From Nigrospora sphaerica (taxonomy: Eukaryota; Ascomycota; Sordariomycetes; Amphisphaeriales; Apiosporaceae): 64,000 bases of DNA. Below the pieces are notes generated by a model, which worked only from the letters and a program-made list of their open reading frames with translations, searched no databases and was not told the DNA's origin. The translations under genes were made by a program, and so were the position numbers. Shown here piece after piece: positions 29,150-62,615 of this stretch. Positions within the stretch are counted from its first letter, which is position 1; each line of letters opens with the position of its first letter. Location: contig JAGVVL010000025.1 in NCBI GenBank assembly GCA_018287875.1, positions 62,001 through 126,000 on the forward strand, written 5' to 3'.

Positions 29150-30067
29150 ATGGCGTCCACAACCACCGTGACAGAGTCAGCGGCGGCCAAGGGCAGCGTT
29201 ACACTGTCTGGGTCGGTAGAAACGCTCCTCATCACGCTCATCGCGCGGGCGCAGGACGCGCTATCGCCAAGCCCAATCCTCAACGACCAGCATAGCCTCG
29301 AGACGGTGGAGCGGATCCGAGCGCAGGGCTACGACTTCTCGCGCACTACGCTCGACAAGGCGCCGGGCATGTACACGCGGCTCGTGGCGACGCGGGCGCG
29401 TATCCTCGACCGCTACTGCGAGGCCTTCCTCGCGCGCAACCCGGGCCCCGCCACCGTCATCCACCTCGCCTGCGGCATGGACTCGCGGGAGCGCCGCATC
29501 GCGTGGCAGGGCGAGGGCCGCCTCTGGATCGACGTCGACCTGCCCGACGTCGTGGCCTTGCGACGACAAGTCGTCGACGCGCCCTCGACGGCACGCGGCG
29601 GCGAGTACCGCCTGCTCAACCCCGACATCATCCACGACGACCAGTGGTTGCACAAGGCCAACGTGCCCAGCGACCGGCCCATCATCGTCATGTTCGAGGG
29701 CCTCACGCCCTACCTCACGGGCGATGAGGTCCACGGCCTTCTCGGCGGCATCGTCAACCACTTCCGAGAAAGCGGCGTCGGCGGCGAGATCCGCTTCGAC
29801 ACCCTCGGCTCTATCTCCTACTTCCTCATCAACTACGTCTTCAACCGCCACCTCACCTCGGTCGGCGCCAAGTTCCAGTGGTACATGGACGACCCGCGCA
29901 CGCTCGAGAAGCACGTGCCCGGCCTGCGCTACAAGGAGCGCATGTTCAACATGATCGACTTTGCCACCTACGGCCAGTCTGGCATGCTCGTTCACGGCCT
30001 TATGCGCATCGCCGACTGGTTCAACCTCGCAGGGCCCATGGGATCCGGGTACGGCTATGAATTTTAG
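29150..30067 (+). CDS. LCM/Ppm1-type S-adenosylmethionine methyltransferase
   Basis: A 305-residue single-exon protein of the leucine carboxyl methyltransferase-like family, which also contains O-methyltransferases acting on polyketides. Visible features are the SAM-binding loop VIHLACGMDSR (residues about 103-113), an acidic strand end DVDLPDVV (about 127-134) that normally contacts the ribose, and FEGLTPYL (about 184-191), corresponding to the family's EGxxxYL. Length is typical. The start gives a good context (ACAATGG). It is the first gene of the cluster and converges on the P450. It could methylate a phenol or carboxyl group of the meroterpenoid; the substrate cannot be read from the sequence. 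It is unlike the small PRC-type methyltransferases of DMOA pathways. Confidence 0.8.
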   Translation: MASTTTVTESAAAKGSVTLSGSVETLLITLIARAQDALSPSPILNDQHSLETVERIRAQGYDFSRTTLDKAPGMYTRLVATRARILDRYCEAFLARNPGPATVIHLACGMDSRERRIAWQGEGRLWIDVDLPDVVALRRQVVDAPSTARGGEYRLLNPDIIHDDQWLHKANVPSDRPIIVMFEGLTPYLTGDEVHGLLGGIVNHFRESGVGGEIRFDTLGSISYFLINYVFNRHLTSVGAKFQWYMDDPRTLEKHVPGLRYKERMFNMIDFATYGQSGMLVHGLMRIADWFNLAGPMGSGYGYEF

Positions 30068-30783
30068 GTGGGTCCTGGGTTAAGGCCAGGTGAGGTTTTC
30101 AGCGACGTTCGTATTGTAGCGCATAATGTTGCCACACATTTCGTATCTTCCTTCTTTCCAGACCATGTCTGGCGTGAAAGTGCATGATGTCAGGAATATT
30201 GTAATCGGAAATATCCAGTACGAACTGGGAGTACTGTCGCGACACGTACTTTTGGGAGGGGCACATGGCTAAACAAAATAACATATCATCATTTTCGAGA
30301 ACAAAATTAGAGTATTACCATTCGACGTCGTTGACAACAAAAGAAACACATCGCTGAATGATAAGAGGTACTTTTCATGTACGAGGCATCGGTATCTCAC
30401 TTATTTGCAATGGTATTGGGCTCATGAACGTATATCACCCTTGAATCCGCCGCTGATCCAGACATCGCCCACTGCCCTAGACCTCATACACTTCGCTAGG
30501 CCAAACCTCCAAAGTTGGACATTTTTCAACGCCCATTCCGGGCCTTGGCACCGAAATCTTTCTAATATGCGTGCAAGGTCGTGGCCACCATTGAAGTCGG
30601 GTTTTCACGGCTTCTACTGAGCTATATCACTGAGGGTATATGCTGAGGCTCGTGACGGGGAACTAAGACGATCAAACAAACTCACATACATCCGAAGCCA
30701 TTCCCAAGTCCAAATACTTCCACGACCTTCTCACAGCCACCGCCGACGTTCCAAGATGGTGCAACTTGGCCCCTCCTCCGCCT
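30068..30783. other. Convergent intergenic region
   Basis: 3' ends of the methyltransferase and the P450 face each other. AT-rich in the middle; no gene seen. Confidence 0.5.
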
Positions 30784-34358: not shown

Positions 34359-35786
34359 CTAAAAGGTGGCAAGAAACTTGGGGAGAAAGTCATGCTCCAG
34401 ACCCTCCCAGATGGTGGTACTGCTCGAGGTGGCCCAGGCGGCACCAATGTACCACGTGTCCCGCCGTCCCTGTAGGGCCTCGAGACGGCCGTAGAGGCCG
34501 TTTTTGATGGCGTCGACGGGGGCGCGGACGTTCCAGGGGTGGGCGGCCTGGTAGACGATGCGCGGGGTGACGGCGGGGTCGGCGTCGGCGGCGCGCACGG
34601 CGGCGGGCAGGCGGGCGAGGTCGGCGGTAACGAGGGCCTCGACGGCGCCGGCGGGCAGCGGTCGCTCAGCCGCCACTGTGACCTGGTAGAGGCCGTCGGT
34701 GCCCGCCTGAGGCACCACCGAGTAGACCACGGGCCCGTCGGGGTAGGCGTAAGGGTTAGCCGGGTGGCGGTTGCGTAGCGTCATGGAGGTGTTGGTGCCG
34801 GCATCTTTGACCACAAGCGAGTACCAGACGCCGTCAGTGAGGGGTGCGAACTGGGCCGCCTCATCGGCGCCCAGGTCGAGCCCGGCGGCCCGCAGGTTGG
34901 CCAGCGTCGGCGGGATTGCCACGATGAGCTTGCGCGCCCGCACGCGCCGCTCACCCGTCGTTGACTGGCCTACCGTGATGGTCATGGGCGCGCCGTCCGC
35001 AGCGGGCCGCTTGACGCGCATTCCGCCCACGCCGTAGAGTACGCGATCGCCGAGGAAGCGGGCGGCGTTCTTGTACAGCGTGCTCGTGTCGTGATTGCTG
35101 GCGATGATGAAACCCTGCTTCAGGGACGCGAGCTCGTACGTGTCGAGGTACTTGAGGATGTACAGCGTCGGCACCTCGAGCAGCGGCACGAAGCCGCCGT
35201 TGAAGTCGAACAGCGTGTTGGCGAGGGCCTCGAGCTCGTACTTCTTCATGAATTCGCCAAAGGGCAGCAGGAGGTCCTCGGGCACGGGCGTCGGGAGGTT
35301 GTAGCCGAACTTAAGATAGGGATACTTAGCGAGCTGGGTGGCATAGCGCTGCAGTCCGACGGCCTGGGCGGCGGCGTCGGGCTGGGTGAAGTTGGGGAGC
35401 AGCTGGCCCGTGGCGAAGTCAACGAACTTTGTGCCGACGCCGAGCTGCTTGCCAACGTTGAGGCTGCCGGCGGGGAAGTCGAAGCGGCGCAGGAAGGCGT
35501 CGACGACGCTTGTGTTAGAGAAGACCTTGACGCCTACGTTAACGGGCGTGCCCGTCGCCGGGTCGTAGTACGTCTCGGTCTGCCCGCCGATCTGGCTTTG
35601 TTTTTCGAGCACGGCGACTGTCTTGTTGTGGTCGAGCAGCCGCGCGGCCGCGTAGACGCCCGCCGCGCCGCCACCAATGATGGCCACATCCACATCGATG
35701 ACGGTGCTGTTCGCGGTGCACGTCGCCGCCGCAGGACCCCCGACGGCCAAGGCGCCCAGCAGGGCCGAAGTGAGCAGTCGGTTCAT
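34359..35786 (-). CDS. Secreted-type FAD-dependent oxidoreductase (amine-oxidase fold)
   Basis: A 475-residue single-exon protein. The start MNRLLTSALLGALAVGG at 35,786 is preferred over the longer open frame because it gives a clean signal peptide (residues 1 to about 22, cut after AAATC or nearby). The FAD Rossmann motif follows immediately: VDVAIIGGGAAGVYAAARLL, then EKQSQIGGQTETY. Towards the C-terminus YIGAAWATSSSTTIWEGLEH contacts the flavin in this fold. It resembles the beta-cyclopiazonate dehydrogenase (CpaO)-like group of fungal FAD enzymes, which oxidise C-N or C-C bonds and can close rings. Here it could carry out an oxidative step on the meroterpenoid in the ER lumen or outside the cell. 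The substrate is unknown. It lies downstream of the PKS on the same strand. Confidence 0.82.
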   Translation of the reverse strand: MNRLLTSALLGALAVGGPAAATCTANSTVIDVDVAIIGGGAAGVYAAARLLDHNKTVAVLEKQSQIGGQTETYYDPATGTPVNVGVKVFSNTSVVDAFLRRFDFPAGSLNVGKQLGVGTKFVDFATGQLLPNFTQPDAAAQAVGLQRYATQLAKYPYLKFGYNLPTPVPEDLLLPFGEFMKKYELEALANTLFDFNGGFVPLLEVPTLYILKYLDTYELASLKQGFIIASNHDTSTLYKNAARFLGDRVLYGVGGMRVKRPAADGAPMTITVGQSTTGERRVRARKLIVAIPPTLANLRAAGLDLGADEAAQFAPLTDGVWYSLVVKDAGTNTSMTLRNRHPANPYAYPDGPVVYSVVPQAGTDGLYQVTVAAERPLPAGAVEALVTADLARLPAAVRAADADPAVTPRIVYQAAHPWNVRAPVDAIKNGLYGRLEALQGRRDTWYIGAAWATSSSTTIWEGLEHDFLPKFLATF

Positions 35787-37052: not shown

Positions 37053-40000
37053 CTACCGCCAAGCGGTAATTAGGCGGAATTGCTGGGACTCGGGGGTACC
37101 ATCATCGCTCCAGTCGACGTGGGCGAAGCCGGCACCGAGCAGGACGTCTCGCCAGTGGTGCTCGTGGGCGAGGGCGTAGGCGCGGCCATCCTCAAAACGC
37201 CACCAGCCGTCGAGCAAGCCGAAGACGCAGTCGAGCCAAGGCAGGGGCCGCGCGAGCTCGAGAAGGCAGAGCAGGCCGGCGTCGGGGCGCAGCAGGCTCG
37301 CCATGTGGGCGCCAGCGACGGCGAGGTCGCGCGTCGCGTGCACGCAGTTGGACGAGAGCACGACGTGATAGCGGCCGACGCGTTCGGGGCGGGGAGGACG
37401 CTCGAGGTCGAGTACGGTGAACTCGACGTGCCGCGCCAGCACCTCGCGCCCGTACCGCGCCTCGAATCGCCGCCGCGTGCCCGCCACCAGCGCCGCCGAC
37501 ACGTCGGTAAAGACGTAGCGGAAAGCGGCGCCGCGCACCAGCAGCAGGTCAAGCATGCGACCCGTCGTGCCGCCTGTGCCGCCGCCGATCTCGAGGATGT
37601 CGAGGGGCTCGTCGGAAGATGTAACCACGGAGTCAAGCAGCTGCTCCATGAAGCGGCCCAGCAGCGCGTTGCCCGTCGCGAACATGGGCGACTTGACGTA
37701 GACATCCTCGAGCACCTGCCGCGACGCCGCCTCCTGGAAGAGGAGCTGCAGGCCGTCGGCGGCGCCCATCAGACATGCGCCAAGGTGCGGTCCGGTGATG
37801 CCGAGAAGTTCATGATCGGGCCGGTACTGCGGGTGCTTAGCGAGGATGCCGGTGTACAGCTCCTCGGCTGTCGGCATGTGCTCGTCCTTCCCGTCGTCGA
37901 GGCCGCGGGGCCCCTTGATGTACTGCCGCTCGGCGCCCTCGCCGCCGCAGGTCTCGACGAGGCCCGACGATGCGAGGATGTCCCAGAGCCGGCCCACGAG
38001 CCGTGAGTACTTTGCCTGGTGCGCGACGGGCGGTAGCGGCGCGCCCACCGGTAGGGCGCGCAGGTCACATCCGAGCGCCGCGAAGGCGTCGACGATGTAT
38101 GTGTGCACGAGGCGCATCTGATCCGGGTGCACCTGGGTGAAGAAGCCGGCGAAGCCCGTCTCCTGCGTTACGAGACCTGTGGCCTGCTTCAGCGACGCGA
38201 AGGCCCGCGTGCTCTGCTCGACGAAGGTGCTGCTGTTGAGCCCTGGAGATGTGTGGGTAGGCGGCGCCAGCGAGGCTTCGTCCTGCGGCGTCGCCGATGA
38301 CGACGACGCCAGATTTCGGGGCCGAGCGCCCGGCAGCGGCGCGGCGCCCTCGTGGGGGAAGAGAGCGGCGCAGAGGCCCGGGAAGGTCAAGTTCTCGTCG
38401 ACATTGGCGACGTCGACGCGACCGCCAAAGGCCTTCTTGATGTCCGACTTGAGCTGCATCATGACGAGCGAGTCGAGCCCTAGCATGACCAAGGGGGTGT
38501 CGGCGGGCAGGCTGTCACTGATGTCGACGTGCTGCGCAAGCAGGGCCAGGAGGGCCTTAGCGTTCTCCGACTCGTCGGGCGTGTCGAGGTCGGCGGCCGA
38601 CGAGAGCGAGGTCGACGACGACAGGCCTGACGCGTCGCTGCAGTCGTCAGCAATGAGGTTGGATGCGCTGTAGGTACGGTTGCCTATGCCGCGTGGGCGC
38701 CAGTCGTGGTCACCGTGGTCCCGCCCGCGGCTCGGCGAACGGCGGGTCGGGCTGACGCGAGTCTCCTCAAAGCCGACGACGGGGGCGCCGCGGGGAGAGT
38801 CGGCGCGCGTGAGGAGGGCCGCGGAAGTCGTGGCTCCGTTCTCGCCGCCGTCGGCCAGCACGAGGGCCTGACGCAGCGAACGCGTCGAGATCTGAGTGAA
38901 GCGAGCGCCCAAGACGGATAGGGCGGGCGCCTTTTGGCTCGGGCTGAAGACTATGAGGTCGCAGACGACGTCCTTGGGGCTCTGGCGCTCGAGCCGCGAG
39001 TGGACGGTCCAGGGTCCCTCGACGGCGGCGCCCGTGAGGGCGCCGCGCAGGCTGGCATGGGGGATGACGGACTCGATGCCCTTGCAGATGTACAGGCTGT
39101 CCTTGACGAGGCCCTCGAGGCTACCGGCGTGGATCTCGCCCACGATGAGCACGTTGTCGAACAGCGGCGGGATCAGCGCCGTGGCCGCGCACCGCTGCGC
39201 CGCGACGTCAGGCATGTCGACGACGCCCACGGCCTCGAGGCCTTGGGACGTGATGGACCGGATGCCCATGTAGCGCTTGTCGTAGTCGGCCACCTGGCCC
39301 AGCAGCTTGGTCACGAAGGTACCGTTCACCTGCGACGCCTCGGGATCCTGGCGCAGGCTCGCACACCGGTCCGACAGCGACCGGCACAGCGAGAGGTACG
39401 CCCGCGTTTCCGAGTTTTGGGTCGTTGGCCCTACGATGCCTGACGCATGGAGCTCCTCCTGGCCCTCATGGGCGTCCTCGACGGCCTGACTCTCCACTGA
39501 GAAGTCCCACGTGCCGCCGGGCGAGCCCGTCTTCCTCCGCAGCACCATGCGGAGCGCGCGCTGGCGGTCCAATCCAAAGGGCCGGTGCAGGCTGACCTGG
39601 TGGACAGCCACCGGCGCGCCGTCATTTGTATAGCCGGGGACGAGCTGGAAGGCGCGGACGGCCGCCTCCATCCAGACCGACGCCGGCGCCAGCGTGCGTC
39701 CGAAGATGGTGCGACCCTGCACGAAGAGGGCGTAGTCCTCGTGGTCCTGATTGATGGCGAACTTGGCCACGTGCTCGGCCGCCTCGAGGAGTGACACAAA
39801 GGGGCGCGGCTTAAATGGCGAACCGGCGCTGGGCGACCGGGCGTCGGCGGTCTTCTCACGGAGCGGCAGCCAGAGGCGCGCGCTTTCGAAGCAGTAGGAC
39901 GGCAAATCGACGGCAGCATACGACGCGACCTGGGCGCCGTGGAACAGCCATGCCTGCACGGGCACGCCCTCGCGCCAGAGGTCGAGCGTCGCGCGCGTGA

Positions 40001-43000
40001 CGTGGTCGAGGGCTTCGGCGCCGTAGGGGCGAGCCGAATAGAAGATTGACGACGACGAAGCCGTCGAAGACGTGGCCTGGAGGGCGCGGCGGGCCAACGT
40101 GGTGCCGACGGAGCGGGAGCCGGCCTCGAGCCAAACGCAGGGTCCGAAACGGGCCTCGAGGCGGCCCACGGCGTCGCCAAAGTAGACGGCGTCGCGCGAC
40201 TGCTGCGTGATCATGGCCGGCGTTGCCCGCGACCAGTCGGCGGGCGAAGCCGCGCAGGCCTCGATGGGGATCCGGCCCTCACGCAGCGTCAGGCCCTCGA
40301 CGAGCCGGCGGTACTCGGGCAGGATGGGCTCGACGAGGGGCGAGTGGAACGCGTGCGTCACCTCGAGCCGCTGCGTCGCAACACCCCGGGTCTGGGCGGC
40401 CTCCTCGATGGCCATGATGGCCGTCTCGGTGCCTGCCAAGATGTGGTGTATAGCCGAATTGCGGCAGGCGACGGCGGGCGTCGCGGTCTCGGTCTCGCAA
40501 CCGCTGGCCACGGCGCCCTGAAGGGCATCCACGGTGGCGGCGTCGGCGTCGACGGACAGCATACAACCCATCTCGGGGCCCCAACGGGCCTGGATGAGGG
40601 CGGCACGGCCGGCAACGAGGCGCAGGGTGTCGCGCAAGCTCAGCACACCGCTGACGGCGAGCGCCGTGAGCTGGCCGAGGCTGTGGCCGACGAGGGCGCA
40701 CACAGGCAGACCCGCGTCAAGCCAGGCCATGGCCACGGCGTACTGGACGGTGAACTGCAGGCAATGCAGGGCGACGAGGTCGTCGACGGGCTCGGCGCGG
40801 AAGAGGAGAGATAGTAAACCCTCCTCCTCGCCCGCTGTTGTTGTTGTTGCTACGAGGCCTAGCGACTGCGCCGTACGGTCGCAGGCGTCGACGTGGTGTC
40901 GCAACAGCGCGCAGCCGTAGTACGCCTCCTCACTAAAGTGGACCTCGCGGCCTGTCTGACCCCCAAAGACGAGCACGACGGGTCGCGCGCTCCCGGGCCT
41001 TCGGGTTATCATCGTCCTGGCGGTATCGCTGCTGCGCAGGCCCGCCTGGAGCTCCTCTACGGTGCCGGCGGAAAAGACGCGGCGGTGCGCCAGATCGTGG
41101 TTCTGCGTCTGCGCCAGCCGGCAAGCCACTGCGGCGACAAGGGCGGACCCGTCGAGGCCCCGCTGCTGCTGTTGGCTCTCGACGAAGGCCGAGAGAGCGT
41201 CGCAGTAGCGGCGTAGGCTGGCGGGCGAGTGGGCGCTGATGAGAAAGGGATATTTCTGGGGCCGAGCCGCGTGTTCAGGCCCCCGCGGTTCCGGCTCCGG
41301 TCCCGGCGGCGGCTGGCAGAGCACAAAGGCGGCGTTAGTGCCCGAGGCGCCGTAGTTGTTGACGAGAGCGGCGCGGAAGGGCGCGTCCCAGGGCCGCAAG
41401 CGCGTGGCCACCTCCATGTGGCCCTCGTGGACGCCCGAGATGGCCGGGTTGAGCACCGTGAAGTTGGCCTGCGGCGGAATCTTGGCGTGCCGCAGCATGA
41501 GGACCGTCTTGATGAAGGCAGCGACGCCTGAGGCGGCCTCGGTGTGGCCGAAGTTGCCTTTGACGGACCCAAAGACGAGCGGCTGCGCGTCGGGCCGCTG
41601 CGCCTTGCCGAGCACCTTCTGCAGGCTTCGGCACTCGATGGGGTCGCCCTTTGCGGTGCCGGTGCCGTGCGCCTCGACGTAGGAGATGCGCGCGGGCGCT
41701 ATGGCGGCGCGGCGCAGCACGTCGGCGTAGAGGTCGCTCTGTGACTCGGACGACGGCAGCGTGATGGAGCGGTTGCCCTTGCTGTTGTTGACGCCCGATG
41801 CGGCCACAACGGCGAGCACACGATCGCCGGCGGCCACTGCAGCCGCAAGGGGCTTGAGTAGCACGAAACCGCCGCCCTCCCCGCGCTGGTAGCCGTTGGC
41901 ATTGGCGTCGAAGGGCCGGCACTGGCCCGTTGGGCTCAGGAATGACGCTGCGTCGAGGTTCTGGTGCGACCGGCCCTCGGCCGTCGTGAGGTTAACGCCG
42001 CCCGCGAGCGCGGCGTCGCACTCGCCGGCCGCGAGGGCGCGGCATGCGGCGTGCAAGGCGACGCCCGACGACGAGCACGCCGTGTCGACGGCCATGGACG
42101 GGCCCGTGAGCCCGAAGAAGTGACTGATGCGGCCGGGCGCGAAGGCGCGCGCCGTGCCCGTGAAGGAAAAGGCTGTCGCGTCGTGCGAGTTGACGTTGGC
42201 CTCGTAGTCGCACGACGACACGCCCACGTAGCAGCCCACGCGGTCGCTCGCCTGCGCTTCCGGTCGCGGCTGGAAGTAGCCGCCGGACTCGAGCGCCTCG
42301 TAGGCGAGGTGAAGCGCCAACCGCTGCTGGGGGTCCATGAACTCAGCTTCGCGCGGCGACTTGCGGAACAGCCCGTAGTCGAAGGCCTCGACGGGCCCCA
42401 GCGCCGTCGCCGTCCGCCGCGCCTCGAGCGTCGCCCAGAACTGTGCGGGGTCGTCGGCCTGCGGGAACCGGCACGATAGCCCGATGACGGCGACGGCGTC
42501 GTCGCCGTAGGCATAGGGCAGCGTCTCGGGTGCCGCCGCTGCTGGCCGCGCGACTCGGATGGGCACCGTTGTCGCAAAAGACGGCCGTGGCGCGCACTCC
42601 ATGGGGCCGAGCACCCACTGCTGAAGCTTAGCACCCGCCGGCGCTTGGGCTGCCATGGTCTGAAAGGACCGCGTCATGGTGGTGTGCCAGTCGGCGCGCT
42701 CAAGCAGGATGCAGCGCAGCGCCGTTTCGTGGAGCGGCGTCGTGTTGTCATGGGACGTCACGAGTTCGCCGCTGTCGCTGCGTCGCAGGGGTACGAGGGG
42801 TCGCGCGTCGCGCGGGAACCGCAGCAGCGGCACAGCATCGCATATGGCTAGGAGTTTCTGAAACAATGGCGTGTGGTCACCGTGGTGGTAGCGGCCGCCC
42901 AGGTTTATCCGCTTTACAGAGGCGCCCTTCTGCTCGAGCGCCGCCACGAGACCTGACGCCGCGCCTTTCCGCGTCGTGATGGTGGCGCTGCATGCATCCG

Positions 43001-43762
43001 AACGCACGCTGATGTACGCCTGTCGGTAGCCGTTCAACGTCAGTATCGTGCCGGGCAAGGGGGGCAGGCAACACCGGGTAGGAAGGGGAGGGGACCCTGT
43101 ACCGGTGCAAATTCATCTACCAAGGCGGCAATGGTGCTGCCGTCTTCATCGCCCTCCTGTCGCGCCCATCGCGCACCGAGACACACGGTGGGCTCTGAGG
43201 ACTTCAGCTCGTCGAGGTCAACGCAAGCGGCGGCGCATACGGCCAGCCGCACGGCGACGGCCGCGTTGTGTGCCAGCTCAGCCTTGTTGCGGGAGCACGA
43301 AAGCGCCATGGCGGAGAGCAGGCCGATGCAGAGCCCCTGGATGCCGCCACCCCGGAGCTCTCCTAGCCTTTGACCATGCAGGTCCCTCTCGCTCAGGTCG
43401 GCATTGCTGTGCATTAAGGCCATGTACTCGGCGATGTGGGTGAGGACGGTGAGAAGTGCGTGGTATATGTTGGAGGGCGCGCCTTCGGGGCGGCGCAGCA
43501 GCGCACCCGAGGCGGAAGCGTGACCATCCGAGGAGAGCCAGGCTGATATTGCTTGGAACAGTGGCGTGGTGTCGAGGCTGTGAAAGATGGGCTCGCGGTC
43601 AGTGAGGAGGGCCCAGACATGGGGCAGTTCGGCGAGCGCCTGTCTCAACCGCGCAAAGCCGGCGTCGTGGAGGAGAGTCGAGCGCAGCTGCCCGAGGCTG
43701 GCAGCGCTCTGGTTCGTGATGAGTGAGCCGCACACCAGCATCGAAGTGCATGTCCCCGCCAT
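37053..43762 (-). CDS. Non-reducing polyketide synthase SAT-KS-AT-PT-ACP-CMeT, no release domain
   Basis: Two exons (43762-43103 and 43019-37053; 83-bp intron with a TACTGAC branch site) give about 2,208 residues. SAT has GLCIG with Cys145. KS has DTACSSS (Cys about 535), EAHGTGT and NFGHTEA. AT has GHSLG (Ser about 1000). PT is at about 1250-1560. ACP has GLDSL (Ser about 1737). CMeT has [10 protein letters not shown] (about 2030) and SSNCVHAT. Such enzymes make C-methylated orsellinic-type acids from acetyl/malonyl-CoA and SAM. Two oddities: the protein ends in the CMeT (QFRLITAWR) with no thioesterase or reductase domain, and the PT position normally held by the catalytic His reads VQGR (residue 1323), although the Asp (PPLFDN, about 1508) is present. 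It is divergently arranged with an SDR. I expect a methylated aryl acid, released or taken up by another protein. Confidence 0.92.
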
Positions 43763-44526: not shown

Positions 44527-45411
44527 ATGGCATCCACCGCCGCGATCCAGCCAGCCACCCTGTCGGGCAAGACGTGCCTCGTGACGGGTGGCGCCGGCGG
44601 GCTTGGCAAGGCAATCGCCACCGCCTTCCTCCAAGCGGGGGCCCAAGTGGTCGTCGTCGACGTCCACGAGGAGCGCGTGCGCCAGACCGAGGCCGACCTC
44701 GCGGCGACGGGGCCCGGCTCGCTCACGGCCGTGACCGCCGACATCACGAGCCAAGAGGCCATGGAGCGGCTCTTCGCCGACATTGCTAGCAAGTTCCAAA
44801 GGCTAGACATCCTTGTCAATAACGCCGCCATCATGGACCGCTTCGAGCCAGTGGGCGACCTCGACCTGGCGCTGTGGGACAAGGTGCTCGCCATCAACCT
44901 GACGGCGCCGGCGCGGCTCAGCAAGCTGGCCATCGCGAGCATGCTCCAGGGGGGGTCCCAGCGCCAGGATGAAAACGCCACGACGGCGCCAGCGATGACG
45001 CCGGCGGTGGCAGGTCCCGGCAGGCCCAAACCGACGGGCCACATCATCAACATCGCGTCGGGAGCGGCCAAGGCAGGCTGGCTGGCGGGCACGGCGTACA
45101 CGGCCAGCAAGCACGGGCTCGTGGGGCTCACTAAGAGCACGGCAGCCTTCTACGGCGAGCAGGGGGTCCGCTGCAACGTGCTGGCGCTGGGTGTCATGCC
45201 CGAGACCAACATCAACGACGCCTTCGCGGCTGGCATGCACGCCGGCGGCCGCCAGAAGGTGGGCGCCATTCTGTCGGGGGTCCGGCCAACGCCCTGCGAC
45301 CCGGCTGACGTGGCGGCGCTGTGCGTTGCCCTCACCTCAGGCCCGGCAGGCAATGCCGTCAACGGGGCTGTGATTGCGGTGGACCATGGTTGGACCAGCG
45401 TCGTGGGCTAG
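44527..45411 (+). CDS. Short-chain dehydrogenase/reductase (classical)
   Basis: A 294-residue single-exon protein. The start MASTAAIQ (ACCATGG context) is chosen over an upstream in-frame ATG. The NAD(P) Rossmann motif TGGAGGLG lies at residues about 19-26, NNAA at about 97-100, and a Ser (IASGAA) precedes the catalytic YTASK (about 194-198). The acidic DVHEE after the second strand favours NAD(H). The region between the NNAA motif and the catalytic Ser has an Ala/Pro-rich insertion (residues about 146-175), longer than usual. It lies divergently from the PKS and presumably oxidises or reduces an alcohol/ketone of the product; 3-hydroxyterpene oxidation is a common job in such clusters. Substrate unknown. 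Confidence 0.88.
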   Translation: MASTAAIQPATLSGKTCLVTGGAGGLGKAIATAFLQAGAQVVVVDVHEERVRQTEADLAATGPGSLTAVTADITSQEAMERLFADIASKFQRLDILVNNAAIMDRFEPVGDLDLALWDKVLAINLTAPARLSKLAIASMLQGGSQRQDENATTAPAMTPAVAGPGRPKPTGHIINIASGAAKAGWLAGTAYTASKHGLVGLTKSTAAFYGEQGVRCNVLALGVMPETNINDAFAAGMHAGGRQKVGAILSGVRPTPCDPADVAALCVALTSGPAGNAVNGAVIAVDHGWTSVVG

Positions 45412-46305: not shown

Positions 46306-46361
<56 letters not shown>

Positions 46362-48671: not shown

Positions 48672-50445
48672 TTACAAACAATACCAGCCAGGCAGGTCCT
48701 GGGGCACCCAGCCGAGCATGTTCTTGGGCACCCAGTCGAGCAGGTCCTGGGGCACCCAGCCGTACCAGACCAATGCGGCGGCAAGTGCAGCGACCGACAG
48801 CAGCGGGAAGGCCATGCAGGCCCCAGCATTGGCGCCCGGCTTCTCCTTGTACTTCTCCCAGCCGGGATGCTCGGTGCCCTTGGGCGGCAGGTAGTCAAGG
48901 ATGGGCCCGTTGACAAGGATGCGGAAGACTCTGCCAGTGACCAGTCTCGCCATGTACGGCATCACGTAACGCGCCATGAGGCGCTGGCGCAGCGTGGTCT
49001 GGGCGTGCACGCGCACCGTGGTCCGGGCTAACCCCTCAAGAGTGCGCAGCCGCGGCAGCCGCTGCTTGAAGAAGCGCTGAAGCATCGCCTCGACCTCGGC
49101 GTAGCTGGGCTTCTTGTCCCGGCACTCTCCCAGCAGGCCTTGCAGCATGTTGGTGAGCAACGCCACGTCCTCAATCGCCGAGTTGGCGCCCTGGCCCGTG
49201 TTGATGGTCATCTGTCCACAGGCGTCAGCATAAGCAAATAAACTTGTCATCGACTGACCGCGATAGTACGCAGTACGCAGCATGGGAGAGAAAGAGAGAG
49301 TTCTTTACCTTGTGGACGCTATCGCCGACACAGACGACGCGGCCGTGGGCCCACGTCTCCAGCAGGCCCTCCTGCAGCGGCAGCATGTTGATGACCTGGC
49401 GCTTCTCCCAGAGGCGGGCAAATGGGACGCCGGGCTTGACCTCGGTCTGCAGGCGGGCCTCGCAGAAGGCGACGGCGTCGGCGTACGTGTAGCGCGGCGA
49501 CTCGTGATAGGCGTAGGTGCGCTCCAACTTCCGGATTAGGAACCAGAAGACGACGTTGTCGACCCCCAGCGCCGCACCCTTGCTGCCAATGATGTAGAAG
49601 GTGTAGCCGTTAGCCAGCTGCAACACCTGCTCGCCCAGCTCGAATTCGGCCACATTGTGCGAGATGCCGAAGACGCATGAGAAGTCGGTCGTCATGTCTA
49701 TAAAAAGGATTAAAACAAGGTAAGCAGGCACTTTATTCACCGGCCAGGAGAGAAGGTTCCCGAGGGGGTCACGCACTCTGTTTCTCGCTCTCGGCCATGT
49801 TGCCCACGGCCGTCTGACCCATGAGGCGCCACATCTCGCGTCGGACATTGCTGTGGATGCCGTCGGCGCCGACGACCAGGTCGGCCTCGTACTCGCGGCC
49901 GTCCGCCGTGAGCACCTTGGCGCCGCCCTCGCCCTGCTCAATGCGGGTGACGTTTGCGTTAAGATGGATCTTGGATTTGTCAGGGAGAGCCTCGTGCAGG
50001 ATCTCGAGGAGCCCTCGCCTCTCCATGAAGGCGATAGGGTATCCGAACCTGGGTTGCGAGAAGGAATGGGCGTCAGTATGTCGTTGCATGGCCAGGCCCT
50101 TGGCGCATCTCGGCCTTTAGGAGAGGGCAGGGGTCCGTACTCTTTGTAAAGCTTCCTCGGGTAGTCACTGGGAAACTGGAAGCCGTTCTGGTTGGGCAGG
50201 TAGACGTCGGTGATGTCCAGCGGCACAACGCGCTTCAAGATATCGTCGTAGAGGCCCAGCTGGTCCAGAATCCGCCCGCCATTGGGCATTACGGCGATGG
50301 AGGCGCCCTCCTGGACTACAACGGCCGGCCGCCTCTCGAGCAACGTGTACTCGACGCTCAGCCTTTCAAGGCAGTGTGCTAGCGTGAGTCCCGACACGGA
50401 GCCGCCCACGATGACCACCTTGAACGCCGGCGGTGGAGGTGCCAT
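48672..50445 (-). CDS. PaxM-type FAD-dependent monooxygenase (epoxidase)
   Basis: Four exons (50445-50141, 50048-49777, 49697-49309, 49211-48672; introns 79-97 bp) give 501 residues. Features are the FAD Rossmann motif IVGGSVSGLTLAHCLE near residue 10, the DG motif VVGADGIHS, and the GD motif GDSVHK followed by NTGQGANSAIEDV. The C-terminus has hydrophobic membrane segments, as in PaxM, AusM and Pyr5-like epoxidases. These enzymes epoxidise the terminal double bond of a prenylated substrate before cyclisation. The tail carries three near-identical 8-residue units, WVPQDLLD/WVPKNMLG/WVPQDLPG (residues 474-497), an unusual extension. It is divergent from a UbiA prenyltransferase. Confidence 0.9.
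48687..48758 (-). repeat. Three tandem 24-bp coding repeats
   Basis: Encodes the WVPxxxxx units at the C-terminus of the FAD monooxygenase. The first and third units differ at few bases. In-frame, so the protein is merely lengthened. Confidence 0.85.
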
Positions 50446-51178: not shown

Positions 51179-52271
51179 ATGGCACGTTCAACGGCCACCA
51201 AAAACAATAGCCTGTTCTACCAGCTGCTGGTGCTGTCCCGCTTCACCAAGTACAATCCAGTCTTCACTACTTTCGCCGGAGGTATGTGTCGCGCCCTTGC
51301 TTAGGTGTGTTGACCACCAATACAAGCTGACCAAAGACCTACACAGCTTTCTCGGCCCTTCTGGCGGGCTCAACTGTGGTCGGCAATGGCCCCTCGGATA
51401 TGTCCCTCTGCCGGGTTTTCGGCCAGACGGCTCTCTGTGTTTTGGCCTCATACGCATTCTGCGGAGCCGGCATGGTTTGGAACGATTGGATAGACCGTGA
51501 CATTGACATCAACGTCACACGCACCAAAGACCGGCCCTTGGCAGCCGGTCGGGTGACAACGGGCCAGGCTATGATTTGGATGTGGGTGCAGATCGCCGCG
51601 TGCTGGGCACTCCTGCACGTGATGCTCGAGGGCGTGGATGTGTACGTATTTGCCCTTACCCCCCCCCCTCTTCCCCTGTCATGTTCTTACCGCTCACGTC
51701 GCATTGTAGATGGAAGCACATGCTCCCAGCCGCCGTTGGCTCCTTCCTCTACCCCTTCGGCAAGCGCCCCATCTGCCGCAAACTCTGGATTTACCCCCAG
51801 TACATCCTGGGCTTCACCATTGCCTGGCCCGCTGTCATCGGCCGCGCCGCCATTCTTGGGCGCGAAGAGACGTTCGCCGAGACGGTGCAGGCGTGCATGC
51901 CGCTATGCAATATGGTCTTCTTCTGGACCATCTTCCTCAACACGGCCTACAGCTATCAAGACGTCGTCGACGACCGCAAGATGGGCGTCAACTCCTTTTA
52001 CAACATCCTGGGCCAGCGCATCCACCTGCTGCTCTGGATGCTCCTCCTCCCCATTGCCCTCTCCATGCCCCGCTACCTTCAGCAGTTCCACTCCCTCTGG
52101 CTCTGGGTCAGCTGGGGCGCCGTCTGGTCCCTCAGCCTCCTGCGTCAGATCACGCGTTTCGATGCCAAGAACCCTGCGAGCGGCGGTAGCCTGCACGTCG
52201 ATAACTTTCTTCTTGGTACCTGGACTATTGGTGCTTGCGCCGTCGAGGTGCTCCTTAAGTGCTACGCCTAG
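51179..52271 (+). CDS. UbiA-family prenyltransferase 1 (Pyr6-like motif type)
   Basis: Three exons (51179-51281, 51347-51641, 51710-52271; introns 65 and 68 bp with GCTGAC-like branch site in the first) give 319 residues and multiple membrane segments. The first Asp-rich motif is NDWIDRDIDINVTRTKDRPL, the second YQDVVDDRKMG; both bind the Mg-diphosphate of the prenyl donor. The wording of the first motif resembles enzymes that prenylate pyrones or indole-type acceptors (Pyr6-like), and differs clearly from the second UbiA at 61,614. It is paired head-to-head with the epoxidase, which suggests it works in the same route. Donor is probably GGPP given the GGPP synthase nearby. Acceptor unknown. 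Confidence 0.88.
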
Positions 52272-53040: not shown

Positions 53041-54335
53041 TTAGAGCCCTTCCAACGCACCCGTGGCCCGGACCGCCTTCTCCGTCAGGTCCCACAGGTT
53101 CCGCGCTATCACCTCGTCCCGCGATCCTGCCGAAGCGACCTGCATCTTGCCGGGCCCGTCGAGGAATTGGCCCCGCCAGCGGGCGCTATCCTGGCGGACC
53201 TCGCGGGCCGTGGCGGCAAACAACTGGGTCAAGACTCCCTGCTCGACGCGGGTGAAGAGTAGGCCCACGAGGGGCCGCACCATGAAGGGCATGACGGTGG
53301 CGGCGCCCTCGGTGCAGACGGGGCCCGGGTTGAGTGAGAGCGAGAGGATGTTCGTCTCGTTGGCGTCGAGCCGCCGCTGCAGCTCGCTCGCGAACAGAAC
53401 GTTGGCCCGTTTCGACCGCCCGTACCGCAGCGTCTGCCCCAGGCACGAGTCCTCCCACCCACGCCCCACGCATGGCGACTGCAGGTCCTCGAGCGCCGTG
53501 TAAGTCTTGACGGGTGCGTTGCGCTCGCCCGACGACGACACGGTGACGACGCGCACATCGGCATCCTTGCACGCTGCTGTCTTCTTGAGCAGCGGCAGGA
53601 GACAATACGTCAAGGTCCAGTGGCCCACGTGGCTGAAGGGTCGTCGTTAGCCTGAGAAGCTTCGTGTACCTGGGATGTTTCTTCCCCGAGGCCAACTTAC
53701 TTCACAGCCATGGCCGTCTCCAGACCATCATGTGTCAATGTGTAATGATAGGGGTTGAGGCCGGCATTGTTAACTGGACCCATGTTAGCTTCGACAGTCA
53801 GTTCCTGGGTCTCTCCCCCCTTCTTTTTCCCTAAAGACCAATGTCTCACTCACCTAGTATGTCCAGACGCGACTCCGTCTCGAGGAAGCGTCTCGCGGCA
53901 CCAGCCACTTGTGACTGGTCACCGAGGTCCAGCGGCAGCCAGATCAGATTCTCACGCTTGGCCGAAGGGCACTCATTGAGCAGCTTGGCTATGGCGGCCT
54001 CGGCGCGGCTCTGCGACCGTGCGGCCAGGTAGACCTTGGCTCCCCTCAGGACTAGTTGTTTTACCGTGTGGTACCCGAGTCCAGCGCTATCAACATGATT
54101 AAGCACGGCCCATATGGCAAAAATGGCTACAGGGGTTTCCACTCGCTACTCACTTGCCGCCCGTCACTATGGCCACCTTGTGGCTGAGATCGGGGATATG
54201 CGTTTCGTCCCATATGTACTTTGACGTGCCACCGAGGCTGCGTGATACGAACATGACCCCGAGGGGTAGGTAGAGAAGTGCCCCATATAGGATGTCCGCC
54301 GCCAGAACGCAAAGCCTGCCCAGCCGTGAAGTCAT
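53041..54335 (-). CDS. Membrane-anchored short-chain dehydrogenase/reductase
   Basis: Four exons (54335-54154, 54086-53854, 53773-53701, 53632-53041; introns 67-80 bp) give 359 residues with all phases matching. An N-terminal hydrophobic segment (CVLAADILYGALLYLPLGVM) precedes the NAD(P) motif, which is rebuilt across the first intron as TGGNAGLG. NNAG follows at the second splice junction, a catalytic Ser (VTVSSSGE), then YGRSKRA. The type resembles retinol/WW-domain-like SDRs. It is long for an SDR because of the anchor and an extension after the catalytic site. It is probably an ER enzyme acting on the lipophilic meroterpenoid. Divergent from the GGPP synthase. Confidence 0.87.
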
Positions 54336-54490: not shown

Positions 54491-54500
54491 GATCGGCCGT
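54491..54500. promoter_or_regulatory. GATCGGCCGT candidate site
   Basis: Third occurrence of the GATCGGCCG core, upstream of the membrane-anchored SDR. See 33,159 and 36,178. Confidence 0.3.
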
Positions 54501-56037: not shown

Positions 56038-57168
56038 ATGTCCGATGGGGCCGCCGGGCCGGAGCAAGCAGAGAGGCAAGAAAAGGTGTAGTCACCCGTC
56101 CTGATACATGACCAAGTTTGCCTTTGTTATCTCGTCGCTGACAGGCAGATGGTGGCAGGTTCTCCAAGCGCCTCTGGATTACCTCCTCACCATCCCGGGT
56201 AAGGATGTGAGGGGCAAGATGATGGATGCCTTCAACCTCTGGCTCCAGATACCAGCAGACAAGCTCGTCATCATCAAGGAAGTGGTTAAGCTGCTTCACA
56301 CAGCCTCACTCTTGTAAGTGCCACGATGAAAGGCATCCGAAAAAGTGTCGGGAGCTGATGCCCGCACGTGTAGAGTCGACGATATACAGGACAACTCGCG
56401 GCTGCGCCGCGGAGTTCCGGTGGCGCACAGCATCTTTGGAGTGGCCCAGACCATCAACACGGCCAACTATGCCTACTTTTTGGCGCAGCAGGAGCTCCTC
56501 AAGCTGGGCTGCGCCGAGGCCTACGAGGTCTTCACCGAGGAGCTCCTGCGTCTGCACCGCGGCCAGGGCATGGACATTTACTGGCGCGACTCGTCCCTCT
56601 GCCCGACCGAGGACGAGTACTTCGAGATGGTCGGCAACAAAACGGGCGGTCTCTTCCGCCTGGCCGTGCGGCTGATGCAACTGGCCAGCCCCAAGACGTG
56701 CGTAGGCCCCCGCGGTGGACGAAACCAGGTTTCGGCGACGACAACTTGTACTGACCCCAACTCCCTAGATGCGACTTCGTCCCCTTCGTCAACGCGCTGG
56801 GCGTGCTGTTCCAGATCCGTGACGACTACCTCAACCTTCAGAGCGACCTCTACACCAAGAACAAGGGGTTCGGCGAGGACCTGACGGAGGGCAAGTTCTC
56901 GTTCCCCATCATCCACAGCATCCGCGCCGACCCAACCAACATCACGCTGCCCAGCATCCTCAAGCAGCGCACCGACGACGAGGACGTCAAGCGCTATGCC
57001 ATCCGCTACATCAAGTCGACGGGCTCCTTTGACCACTGCAAGCGCAAGATCGACGAGCTCGTCGCCGCCGCCCGCGTCTGTGTCGAGGATATGAGCCCCG
57101 AGGACGCCAAGGTCGCCGACGCCATCATGGGTATGGTGGGACTCGGTGCCGACGGCATCGCCGTGTAG
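56038..57168 (+). CDS. Geranylgeranyl diphosphate synthase
   Basis: Four exons (56038-56085, 56159-56313, 56374-56697, 56769-57168) give 308 residues. This start is preferred because splicing yields [21 protein letters not shown], the normal N-terminal pattern of fungal GGPP synthases; an alternative unspliced start exists at 56,108. The first Asp-rich motif is [14 protein letters not shown] (completed across an intron), the second [14 protein letters not shown] and the KFSFPIIH region are also present. It condenses IPP with FPP to C20 GGPP. A dedicated copy in a cluster that also has UbiA and a Pyr4-type cyclase indicates a diterpenoid, not sesquiterpenoid, moiety. First exon boundaries are the least certain; its donor GTGTAG is weak. 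Confidence 0.9.
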
Positions 57169-57559: not shown

Positions 57560-60500
57560 CTATGCACCGAGATACCGAGTCTTCTTCCAGTGGGTGATGT
57601 ATTTGACAACAATCGACTCATCCACGGGGCCCAAGCTGCGTAGCCGCGGCGAAAAACGGGCGGCGACTTGCGTTTCCAGAACCACCTGACCGCACGCCAC
57701 GGGCTCAAAGTAGTTCTGGAAGAACTGCTGCAGCTGCTGCGCCGGGAACTTGTCGCCGTTGCTCTCTTGGCGCGCCACCTCGGCCATCCACGCATCGAAA
57801 GGCAGGGATGGTTCCGGCAGACCCAACGTCTTGGCCAACCAGCCCATGACGTCGTCCCAGGGCTGCCGTACGGGGTTTTCGAGGTGCAGGACCAGAGGCA
57901 GGTTGCTGGCACCCAGCGTCACGTCGGCAACTACATAGGCCGCGTCATCCACCGGGATCCAGGAGAGCATCTGAATACCACGTTAGCCCTGTACGACTCG
58001 GAATTATAACAGCAACATGAACGTTAAAAAGAATTGTGGCCATGGAGCCACAAAGCGGAGGAAACGGTCGGCCACTTACGCCGGACAAACGAGGGAGGTG
58101 GCCCAGGTTTTGGCCTGTCTTCACCAACATTGGAATCTGCTCCCTTTCGTTCCAGACACCGGAATGCCTGGCGCCCGTCATCTGACCGCAGCGGATTGAA
58201 GTGACTTCGAGCTGGCCGGCGAAGGTCTTGGCCGCCTCTTGCACGATGGCCTCGCATACCAACTTGCCGTCGGCATAGCCAACGCCGCAGGCCGCGTCCT
58301 CGAGCGGCACGGGGGCCTCGGGTATGGGCCGACCGGCGGCGCCGTCGAGGCCCAGGCGGGCGGCGGCGGCGATGGACGAGATGAAGACTAAGCGCGGAGG
58401 ATAACTGCGGCCCTCGCCGCCGCCGCCGCCGACCACGAGCTCGAGTAGGCTACGGAGGAAGGCGAATTGGGGGCGGAATGCCCGCAGCGGGAGGAGGTAG
58501 TTCATGGGCCAGGCGGCGTGGACGACGTGGGTGACGCGGGCGCGCAAACCCGCATAGGCGAGGGGGCCGAGGCCGAGCTGCGGCGCCGCCGGGTCGACCT
58601 CAACCGTGGCCAGCTTGGACCAGATGGCGTCGTCGCCGAGGGCGAGGCCGCGCGCCGTGAGGAGACAGTGGTCGAAGGGCCCGCCGCCGGGCGTCGGTTG
58701 CGCGTTGGTACCGCGTTCCTTGCGCACGACGCAGAGGACGCGCGCCACACCGTCGCGCCGCGCCAGCTCCGCCGCCAAATGCGCCCCCAGGCTGCCCGAG
58801 CTACCCGTTAGCAGTACCACGGCCCCGCCGTGGGGTGGGGGAGGCGCCAGTGGCGCCGGCGTCGGAGGCGGCGCGTCGGATAGCGGCGCTGGGGCGAACT
58901 CGGCGAGACACGCGCGCATCTCCTCGAGGGTGTCGGCGGCAGATGTGCCAGTGGGAACCGACCTCTGGGCGATGGCCGCCGCCATCTCGCGGATCGTCGG
59001 CTTCACGTAGACAAACTGGGGCGTGATCAGCTCAGCGGCGTCGATGCCGCTCAGGGCCGGCGTCTTGGCAACGGCGGCAATCAGGAGGCGGCGCAGCTGC
59101 TGGATCCGCAGGGAATCGATGCCCATGTCGAACAAGCTGGCCTTGACGTCCAGGCCCGATGCGGGCGTTGTCGTGACGACGACGTGCTGGCGGAAGAGGG
59201 AGGCGAGGCTGGCCTCGAGATGGTCGAGGTCGAGAGGCTCGACGGCCTCGGTGGCGGCTTCAAGAAGCTTTTCGTACGCCTGGTCGATCTCGCGCGCGAA
59301 GAGGGCATATGCTTCGCGGCGCGCGATGGAGCCCTTGTCGGTGCGTGGAATGTGCATGCCGGCGGGCACGAAGACGATGGCGTCGGGCGAGGGCACGCGG
59401 GCCGAGCTGTCCATGCGCTCGCCGGCCGCCTGGACCACGTCCCAGACGTGGGCACGCAGGGCCTCAAACGCATCACCGTCGCCGTCAGCGGGGACGAACT
59501 CGGGCGGCGGCTCGACGAGCACGCCGAGGTGGAAGCGGTGGTCACCAAAGGCCACTGCGGCGCGCACGCAGGCGGCTTCGCTAAGCATGGCCTCGAGCAC
59601 GAGCGGGTCGGCCTTCTCGCCCGTTGCGAGCACGAGGATGTCGTCGTCGCGCCCGACGGCGGCGAAGTCGGTCGCTGGCTGCTTCTCGTTGCGCACAAGC
59701 TGGTCGGCGATCTCGAAGCCCTCGGTCTTACCCGGCGCGAACACGGTCAGCCGGAAACGCCGCTCGCCGCCGCGCGGCGCCAGCTCGGCGACGCGGCAGT
59801 CCATATCCTTACGCAGCCGGAAGAAGCGCCAGTCGTAGTCGTCGCCCGGCACAAACGTTAGCGATAGCGGCCCCGTCTCGGTCACGCCGTACATGTTGAG
59901 CAGGCGCACGCCAGCGGCGGCGAGCCGGTTGCCGACGCCAGCGCCGAGGGCGGCGCCGCCTGTGGCCACGAAGTCGAGGGGCGCTAGCGCGGCGATGCCC
60001 TCGCCGCCGGGCAGGTGGCACATGTCGTCAAGAAGCGATGGCACTGTCATCATAGAGCGCACGCTGGCGCGCCGGATGAGGGCCACGAGACCTTGCGCAT
60101 TGGGGATGCCGTCGCTGGCGGGGAAGAGGGTCGTCTTACCCGACGACATGGACAGCGCCGGCGCCACGAGGCCGAAACCATGAAACATGGGCAGCGTCGT
60201 GAGGTTCAGCCCCTGCGCCTGCTCTTCGCTGGCCCACTCGTAGCAGACCGCCGCCGATAGGAGCATGCGGTGCGTCAGCGGGATGGGCTTGGGCAGCCCC
60301 GTCGATCCCGACGAGTGCAGCAGCAGGATGGCCTCATCCAGCGCCCGGGGCTTTCCGAGGGGCCGCAGTGTCGTGTCACCAGCCGTGTCGGCGTTGGCGT
60401 AATCGTCGTATGGCTTGCCGACCACCACCTTGATGCCCTTAGCAGCCAGACCGTCGAGCATCGCCTTGAGACCGACGCTGAAGCGCCGCGAGGCGACGAT

Positions 60501-60982
60501 AGTCTTGACGCCCACCGTCTTGAGCAGTGCTTCTATGGCCGCCAGCGGCAGGCGGGGCGATAGCACGAGGGGCTTCGTCAAAAAAATATTAGTAAAGTAG
60601 TTCAGGGTCCCGCCATGCATGGAAGAAAGGGGGGGGGGTTGTTTCTCAGACAAGTACCCACTGGCGTTTGGATGCTGATCAGGGCAAACTCATGGACCAC
60701 TAAGCCGAAGTCGCTCTCCATCAAGAGCGCCACCGGCTCTCCAGGCGTGGCCACGGCCTCCCGGGCCCAGTCGGCGCACTGAGACACGGCGGCCTTGAAG
60801 GCGCCATGGGTGATGGTGTTGAGGGAGCCGTCGGACTTGGCCTGGACGCAGAAGGGGTGCGAAGCGTTGTGGAGGGCGTTGAAATCAATCAGTTCCGTGA
60901 GGGACTGCACGCGGCCGTCGTTGTGGTCTTCCCGCGGCGCCGGAGACTCCAGGTCGGACCCTGCCCGGGCAAAAGCCTTCAT
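57560..60982 (-). CDS. NRPS-like aryl-acid reductase (A-T-R)
   Basis: Three exons (60982-60662, 60572-58080, 57970-57560; introns 89 and 109 bp) give 1,074 residues, typical of the family. The adenylation domain (about 30-520) has LLHSSGSTGLPKP and NMYGVTETGPL. The thiolation domain has MGIDSLRI with its Ser near 594. The terminal reductase domain (about 690-1074) has LLTGSSGSLG, then ISSIAAA and YADGK as the SDR-type Tyr/Lys. Enzymes of this layout (ATEG_03630, StbB, AscB) activate a methylated or plain orsellinic acid and reduce it to the aldehyde. With the neighbouring CMeT-containing PKS this fits conversion of a methylated orsellinic-type acid. It is divergent from UbiA-2. Whether it also accepts acyl chains straight from the releaseless PKS is open. 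Confidence 0.9.
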
Positions 60983-61613
60983 GGTTTCGGCAACACTCTC
61001 GTAGGAACCGAGTTATTTCGCCTGTCTGACGAAATAAAGAGCCACGACGGATGATATCATGTGTGTGAAGAAGAATAGTACGGAGCCGACTTGTCTTCGC
61101 CTTTGAGGGACCGGAAAAGAGACAGTGCCGCAAAACGTCGCAAAAAGGATGTTGGACGCGCTGGAAGAGCATCAGGCTATAGTCTGGTGGCTTACACCTT
61201 GCCGGCGCTCGGACCTGTTCACAAGGCTATAACGGAAAGTACCGAGACTCTGGTCTTCAATGTCAGCATATGTTACCTCCTCATCGCTGGGATGGGGAAT
61301 GCGTTGCCCCCCCGAGAAGTCAGCGCTTTCAGCCACGTCGGGGGGTTTGGCGTTTAGGTTTCTGCGGTGGAGTTGGGACCCAAAACTATCCGATTGGGGA
61401 TGTATCGCGTGGGGGAAAATGTCGGCGAATTACAAATTGAACGTGAAAGTCAAGTTTCATAGTCTCTTGCGTACTTAGGGTCCGGGAGACTTCACATGTT
61501 TCCGGTCAGAGGAGAGTCGGTCCACCTGTGAGCTCACCACCCGTCCTTCCACGCCTTTGTTGCCGTCGACGTTTCCTCCACGCACGTCATCAACAAACAC
61601 CCCGTACCAAAAG
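60983..61613. promoter_or_regulatory. Bidirectional promoter region, A-T-R / UbiA-2
   Basis: 631 bp between divergent starts, no gene seen. The pairing of an aryl-acid reductase with an aromatic prenyltransferase suggests coordinated expression of consecutive steps. Confidence 0.5.
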
Positions 61614-62615
61614 ATGGCGTCTCCGTCTTCCAAGTTGCAGGCCAACGCCGCGGCCGCGGGTCCCGAGTACGTGCGGCCGACGCGCGGCATCCTGTCGGTG
61701 CTGCCGGCGGCGTGGGTGCCGTACGCCGAGCTGATCCGGCTGCACCAGCCGCACGGCATCTACATGATCGCGTTCCCGCATGTCGTGGCTCTGTTCTACG
61801 CGGCTGCCATCACTGAGGGCCCAATGCCGCCTGCGGTGCTAGCCGAGCGCGCCGCCGTGCTCGCCGTCTGGGTCTTCTTCTGGCGCAGCGCCGGCTGCGC
61901 GTGGAACGACAACGTCGATCAGGACTACGACCGCCAGACCGCGCGCTGCCGTCTCCGCCCTATCGCGCGCGGCGCCGTGTCCACCTTCGCCGGCCACGTC
62001 TACGCGGCTGCCCTCTTCGCTGCCGGCGTGGCGCCGTTGTGGTACGCGCTGCCGCCTGCGTGCACGACGGCGGCCATGGTTTCCATTGTGCTATCCATGA
62101 TGTACCCCTTCGGTAAACGATTCACCGACTTTGCCCAGGTCGTGCTCGGCGCGACGCTGGGGTCCACCGTCTTCCTGACCACACTCAGCCTCGGCCTGCC
62201 CGCGCTGTCGCCCGTCTGGCTGCTGCCGACAACCTGCCTCGCCGCCACGGTGCTATTGCTGGTCGTCTTCTACGACACCGTATACGCGCGCGCCGACACG
62301 GCCGACGACATCAAGTCAGGCGTGCGCGGCATGGCCGTGCGCTACCGCCACAACATCGAGGGCCTCTTCCTGGCACTCACCGCCCTCATCGTCACCTGCT
62401 TGACCGTCCTCGGCCGCGTCGTGGGCATGCAGTACTGGTACTACGCCCTCTCAGTCGTTAGCCTCGCCGGCTCCCTTCTCGCCCTCGTCGCCCTCACCCG
62501 CTGGAACCTACTTTCCAGCTGGGCCGGCTCGTCGGGGTGGCTATACGCCCTAGCCATTGCGAACCTGGCGGCCGGCTTCGCCAGCGAGTATTTTGTGCGC
62601 AAGGTGCTGGTCTAA
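61614..62615 (+). CDS. UbiA-family aromatic prenyltransferase 2 (AusN/Trt2-like)
   Basis: A 333-residue single-exon membrane protein. The N-terminal YAELIRLHQPHGIYMIAFPH and the first Asp-rich motif WNDNVDQDYDRQTARCRLRP are the pattern of the meroterpenoid phenolic-acid prenyltransferases (AusN, Trt2 and the COQ2-like group). The second motif is YARADTADDIKSG. It transfers a polyprenyl chain onto an electron-rich aromatic carbon in the membrane, here most simply GGPP onto the polyketide phenol. The start MASPSSKL has an acceptable context (AAGATGG). It is the last gene of the cluster and divergent from the A-T-R enzyme. Confidence 0.9.
   Translation: MASPSSKLQANAAAAGPEYVRPTRGILSVLPAAWVPYAELIRLHQPHGIYMIAFPHVVALFYAAAITEGPMPPAVLAERAAVLAVWVFFWRSAGCAWNDNVDQDYDRQTARCRLRPIARGAVSTFAGHVYAAALFAAGVAPLWYALPPACTTAAMVSIVLSMMYPFGKRFTDFAQVVLGATLGSTVFLTTLSLGLPALSPVWLLPTTCLAATVLLLVVFYDTVYARADTADDIKSGVRGMAVRYRHNIEGLFLALTALIVTCLTVLGRVVGMQYWYYALSVVSLAGSLLALVALTRWNLLSSWAGSSGWLYALAIANLAAGFASEYFVRKVLV

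Follow-up and report, generated by a model that had tools for sequence, protein, structure and literature searches.

Clusters for decalin-diterpenoid-pyrones (DDPs) share, according to the main text that describes them, a core of five genes encoding a non-reducing polyketide synthase (NR-PKS), a cyclase, a prenyltransferase, a geranylgeranyl diphosphate (GGPP) synthase and a flavin adenine dinucleotide (FAD)-dependent epoxidase, to which some species add two short-chain dehydrogenase/reductases (SDR1 and SDR2, for C-8 inversion), a methyltransferase, a cytochrome P450 and a second methyltransferase (PMC7156458). The ilicicolin cluster Ndi_Ili of Neonectria discophora is described as encoding a KS-AT-PT-ACP-TE PKS ending in a thioesterase (TE), a prenyltransferase, a non-ribosomal peptide synthetase (NRPS)-like A-T-R reductase and an FAD halogenase (PMC9569342), and the col cluster of Colletotrichum, which makes colletorins and colletochlorins, as comprising colA (prenyltransferase), colB (A-T-R), colC (NR-PKS) and colD (halogenase) (PMC12134893). 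Ilicicolins B and A are reported to lie on the ascochlorin/ascofuranone route (PMC8902786). Here we analyse a 64,000-nucleotide stretch of the Nigrospora sphaerica genome (51.6 Mb, 33 contigs), hereafter the window, which covers positions 62001-126000 of contig JAGVVL010000025.1 (C16) and carries 12 adjacent genes at window positions 29150-62615 that a preliminary description had taken for a single, probably undescribed meroditerpenoid pathway. The locus very probably consists of two abutting clusters, a DDP cluster on the left (29.1-57.2 kb) and an ilicicolin/colletochlorin-type cluster on the right (57.6 kb to C16:139.3 kb), and each half belongs to an already known kind.

Gene models came from purpose-written dynamic programming over splice sites, and Pfam scans were run on both open frames and spliced models; all models are predictions, and some N-termini are uncertain. 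Start-to-stop models were obtained for all 12 genes, with those of the first UbiA prenyltransferase (PT1), SDR2 and the GGPP synthase corrected or rechecked after the first splice run. In order, the genes encode an LCM-type methyltransferase, a P450, an amine-oxidase-like flavoprotein, the NR-PKS PKS1, SDR1, a Pyr4-like cyclase, an FAD epoxidase, PT1, SDR2, a GGPP synthase, an A-T-R reductase and a second UbiA prenyltransferase (PT2). Pfam scans and splice models agree on the kinds and places of these genes, which thus stand as first described, as does the presence of a meroditerpenoid cluster with its own GGPP synthase. The assignment of all 12 genes to one pathway is not supported, nor is the view that the cluster is of an undescribed kind, the DDP gene set having been published (PMC7156458).

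PKS1 (37053-43741, minus strand) is a 2195 amino acid DDP-type NR-PKS with the architecture SAT-KS-AT-PT-ACP-CMeT, assigned from Pfam, the spliced model and a tree. Its PT region gives a weak DH-like match only, and the protein ends directly after the C-methyltransferase (CMeT) domain. A TE hidden downstream was considered and rejected: in the 1083 bp past the stop codon, the longest open stretches on the same strand span 60, 57 and 59 codons in the three frames. A homologue search with the KS-to-CMeT region (1988 amino acids) passed 5615 proteins, and among the best 120 of these, which were the ones considered, the nearest named relatives are from Apiospora (57-61% identity), with proteins from Tolypocladium, Fusarium, Neonectria, Colletotrichum, Macrophomina and others at approximately 46-50%. 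PKS1 shares 44% identity with subA and 48% with a Fusarium graminearum protein. A quick tree was constructed without bootstraps from 71 sequences of at least 1600 amino acids, comprising PKS1 and 70 of the best 120 homologues picked by rank, name and TE content, the last read by eye from Pfam annotation. This placed PKS1 in a TE-less clade of 35 sequences with subA and synthases of Fusarium, Colletotrichum and Apiospora (SH-aLRT 100), and all 23 TE-type sequences fell on the other side of one branch from it. PKS1 is thus a CMeT-containing synthase that ends without a TE or reductase (R) domain inside the subA clade, and this position among pyrone synthases, together with the TE-less architecture, makes a pyrone its most likely product as judged from sequence, rather than the aryl acid proposed in the preliminary description.

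The other four core DDP kinds are all present beside PKS1. The GGPP synthase gene (56108-57168, plus strand; PF00348, 224 bits) has an uncertain start, at 56108 or 56219. PT1 (51179-52271, plus strand; 319 amino acids; PF01040, 68 and 57 bits in two frames) is a probable GGPP:pyrone transferase whose spliced model contains both aspartate motifs, NDWIDRDID and DVVDD. The remaining two core genes encode an FAD-dependent epoxidase-like monooxygenase (48672-50445, minus strand; 501 amino acids; FAD_binding_3, PF01494, 85.6 bits after splicing) and a Pyr4-like transmembrane terpene cyclase of two exons (46401-47187, plus strand; 243 amino acids; PF25129, 213.6 and 58.3 bits). A second Pyr4-type cyclase locus was seen elsewhere in the same genome (C12:4247660-4248490, 112 bits on its first exon), where another meroterpenoid-like locus may lie.

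In addition to the five core kinds, the left cluster encodes two SDRs, one methyltransferase, one P450 and one extra flavoprotein. SDR1 (44527-45411, plus strand; 294 amino acids) matches adh_short with 153 bits, and SDR2 (53041-54254, minus strand; approximately 320 amino acids), which has no Pfam match as a bare frame, matches adh_short only after splicing (57 bits on the spliced model, exon junction checked). The LCM-type methyltransferase (29150-30067, plus strand; 305 amino acids; PF04072, 62 bits) and the P450 (30784-32757, minus strand; PF00067, 131 and 33 bits in two frames, with uncertain exon boundaries) are probable DDP tailoring enzymes. The amine-oxidase-like flavoprotein (34359-35786, minus strand; 475 amino acids; NAD_binding_8 and Amino_oxidase) has beta-cyclopiazonate dehydrogenase (9vex, 182 bits) as its best solved relative. 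Homologue searches covered PT2, the reductase and PKS1. PT1 was matched to the dp genes by kind, as were the SDRs, the methyltransferase and the P450 (dpxxG, H, I and J), which are presumed to be one-to-one orthologues of the published DDP genes. By this measure, the left cluster resembles the sub, dpfg, dpmp, dpch, dpma and dpas clusters as described in the main text of PMC7156458 in its five core genes, two SDRs, methyltransferase and P450, and its PKS falls in the same TE-less clade. It differs from them in the extra flavoprotein, in having one methyltransferase where dpfg has two and in abutting a second cluster.

From these gene kinds we infer a route in N. sphaerica in which PKS1 would make a C-methylated alpha-pyrone and release it with no TE involved, the GGPP synthase and PT1 would put a C20 chain on this pyrone, and the FAD epoxidase and Pyr4-like cyclase would form the decalin. 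By analogy with the higginsianin B route, the SDR pair would probably invert a single carbinol, and the methyltransferase, P450 and extra flavoprotein may decorate the pyrone or side chain.

The last two genes of the window are of a different kind. Approximately 390 bp beyond the GGPP synthase gene, across a junction at 57.2-57.6 kb, lies a gene for an A-T-R carboxylate reductase of the StbB/AscB/ColB-like type (57560-60982, minus strand; AMP-binding and NAD_binding_4), which is the first gene of the second cluster. It is followed by PT2 (61614-62615, plus strand; 333 amino acids; PF01040, 95.9 bits), an AscA/ColA-like UbiA prenyltransferase whose translation contains the motifs NDNVDQDYD and DTADD. 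The PT2 search passed 276 proteins, and among the best 120 considered, proteins from Apiospora, Colletotrichum and Pyricularia are 56-70% identical to PT2; an ascA-named Cladobotryum protein is 52% identical and a Colletotrichum tabaci protein 60%. The 89 reductase homologues include ascB-named (49% and 50%) and stbB-named (51%) proteins. For PT2, the reductase and PKS1 alike, the nearest named relatives in the matches listed include Apiospora proteins. Reductase and PT2 homologues carry consecutive locus tags in four species (PspLS_00308/00309, QQX98_003135/003136, G7046_g1521/1522 and G7Z17_g2694/2693), and 20 longest-contig sizes are common to the 119 PT2 matches listed with a size and the 89 reductase matches. 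Elsewhere in the N. sphaerica genome, reductase-like matches of 25-36% identity were seen at C12:1341021, C12:4397651, C12:249152, C10:499116, C7:664553 and other places, and the sole close genome match to the nearest relative of the window reductase, P0121, was that reductase itself.

The right edge of the window falls inside a cluster, with three more biosynthetic or regulatory genes within 13.4 kb beyond it. These encode a Zn2Cys6 protein (C16:126940-128517), PKS2 (C16:~131002-136698) and a RadH-like FAD halogenase (C16:137420-139315; PF04820, 47 bits; RadH 8gu0, 460 bits), for which an N-terminal piece absent from the model was located in frame. Pfam analysis of the PKS2 model indicated a KS-AT-PT-ACP-TE protein with an alpha/beta-hydrolase TE, a PT region seen as weak DH-like matches and no SAT or CMeT match. 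From C16:139.3 to 166 kb, no further biosynthetic gene was recognised by eye among frames of at least 130 amino acids, two of which were scanned with Pfam. Because of their homology, their pairing in many other fungi and the neighbouring PKS2 and halogenase genes, PT2 and the A-T-R reductase most likely form the start of a second, ilicicolin/colletochlorin-type cluster cut by the window edge, and the earlier placement of both in the PKS1 pathway is not supported.

A single hybrid pathway, in which both prenyltransferases and the reductase turn GGPP and a PKS1-derived aryl polyketide into one product, would suit the contiguity of the 12 genes and the short gap between the GGPP synthase and reductase genes. 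However, PKS1 lacks a domain for product release and groups with pyrone synthases, a second, TE-bearing and CMeT-less PKS lies beside the reductase and PT2, and relatives of the reductase and PKS1 are far apart by locus tag in three Apiospora species. This reading, set aside once the flank revealed the second PKS and the halogenase, is extremely unlikely.

In the right cluster, PKS2 would provide orsellinic acid for prenylation by PT2, the A-T-R enzyme would convert the acid into an aldehyde and the ring would be chlorinated by the RadH-like halogenase; the prenyl length that PT2 transfers is likewise presumed. The same four gene kinds occur in Ndi_Ili, as far as its main text describes them (PMC9569342), and in the col cluster (PMC12134893), to which the right cluster was likened by kind and by the 60% identity of PT2 to the C. 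tabaci protein, not to ColA itself. Proteins named after the ascochlorin/ascofuranone genes ascA and ascB share 49-52% identity with PT2 and the reductase, but around PKS2 no terpene tailoring genes of the asc type were recognised, and the Pyr4-like cyclase here sits amid the DDP genes. PT2 differs from the prenyltransferase of Thelonectria discophora, which we take to be the same species as Neonectria discophora, in being only 42% identical to it, and the reductase differs in carrying Met at the aligned specificity site.

That site is among several points that weigh against two clusters of these known kinds. Residue 355 of carboxylate reductases of this clade, reported as a correlate of specificity and not as a defining trait of the cluster, is Phe in both StbB and AscB, whereas six other enzymes have His and PnlA has Gln (PMC9605436). 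AscB-like reductases thus carry Phe there and AtCAR-like reductases His. The window reductase carries Met at the aligned site rather than the expected Phe, as does its nearest relative, P0121. Among the 63 of 89 homologues longer than 900 amino acids, the site is Phe in 30, His in 19, Leu in seven, another residue in five, Met in P0121 alone and a gap in one, the stbB-named protein; both ascB-named proteins carry Phe. A hydrophobic residue here is, at a guess, compatible with a prenylated substrate. On the left side, the Macrophomina synthases fall just outside the 35-sequence clade, the composition of PKS1 departs from the model used for what was a quick tree, and the amine-oxidase-like flavoprotein lies outside the published DDP gene sets. 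Finally, intermediates may be exchanged between the two halves.

Such exchange is part of a further explanation, in which the placement of the clusters is functional, with the adjacent GGPP synthase also supplying PT2, or with both halves under a single regulator. ColA, a relative of the PT2 family, is reported to have yielded products in A. nidulans with prenyl chains of three lengths (PMC12134893), and Colletotrichum higginsianum, which makes both higginsianins and colletochlorins, is reported to overproduce both families in the absence of CclA (PMC6637877). The adjacency of the two clusters in this genome is observed, and it is the only part of the locus with some novelty. In the main texts searched, which included PMC6637877, PMC7260715, PMC12134893, PMC8902786, PMC9569342, PMC9605436 and PMC7156458, no passage was found that places a DDP cluster next to a colletochlorin/ilicicolin one, nor were gene identifiers of the C. 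higginsianum clusters found.

Reductase and PKS1 relatives are widely separated by locus tag in three Apiospora assemblies (PG989_007395/016311, PG994_009823/004361 and PG998_005241/012796) and likewise in Neonectria punicea (QQX98_003135/010824). When equal contig sizes in base pairs were assumed to denote the same contig, PKS homologues (best 120) shared a contig with PT2 homologues twice (C. tabaci, 4,133,474; metagenomic, 49,838) and with reductase homologues four times (C. spaethianum, 1,109,368; Paramyrothecium foliicola, 4,207,603; two Aspergillus contigs, on which the PKSs are TE-type and lie outside the DDP clade). Only the 49,838-bp contig, which seems to carry relatives of PKS1 and PT2 (P0255 and P0048), is short enough to imply closeness, so the adjacency may be shared by one other contig of under 50 kb. 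A scan of 15 promoters of 500 bp for 39 CGG/CCG spacings and all 8-mers gave CGGN6CCG as the best pattern, present in seven promoters against 2.9 expected, with p = 0.01 before correction over the 39 patterns and with counts that are not independent, since divergent gene pairs share promoters. With the genes apart in Apiospora and N. punicea, and with a best promoter pattern of such uncertain significance, functional placement, shared regulation included, is unlikely. Also unlikely is a heritable twin cluster in more than one lineage, with one regulator and the junction GGPP synthase feeding PT2, which would yield a chlorinated geranylgeranyl-orsellinaldehyde beside the pyrone.

The surroundings raise the question of whether the locus is decayed or silent. 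By its frames, the first 28 kb of the window looks like transposon debris, with three frames matching reverse transcriptase, endonuclease and DDE transposase in Pfam, and such genes in the left flank would suit decay amid transposon-rich DNA. Against this, no internal stop interrupts the models between start and stop codon, and the catalytic motifs sought are present, namely those of PKS1, the PKS2 motifs DTACSAS, GHSLG and GWSTG, WAWFIP in the halogenase and the UbiA aspartate motifs, which makes decay very improbable. Across window positions 1-28000 and C16:1-60000, the debris is dense and includes long interspersed nuclear element (LINE)-type reverse transcriptase/endonuclease, DDE_1 transposase and, by eye, gypsy-like frames; no run of at least three TTAGGG units was seen in the contig's first 10 kb.

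Reading the locus as two abutting clusters of known kinds does away with a spurious new-pathway candidate, an instance of how a window edge can create an odd-looking gene combination, and puts in its place two testable product predictions, a diterpenoid pyrone and a chlorinated prenyl-orsellinaldehyde. Should the placement prove conserved, it would connect two families of products reported to be jointly overproduced in a Colletotrichum chromatin mutant (PMC6637877), and would provide a clean case for how neighbouring clusters come to be co-inherited or co-regulated.

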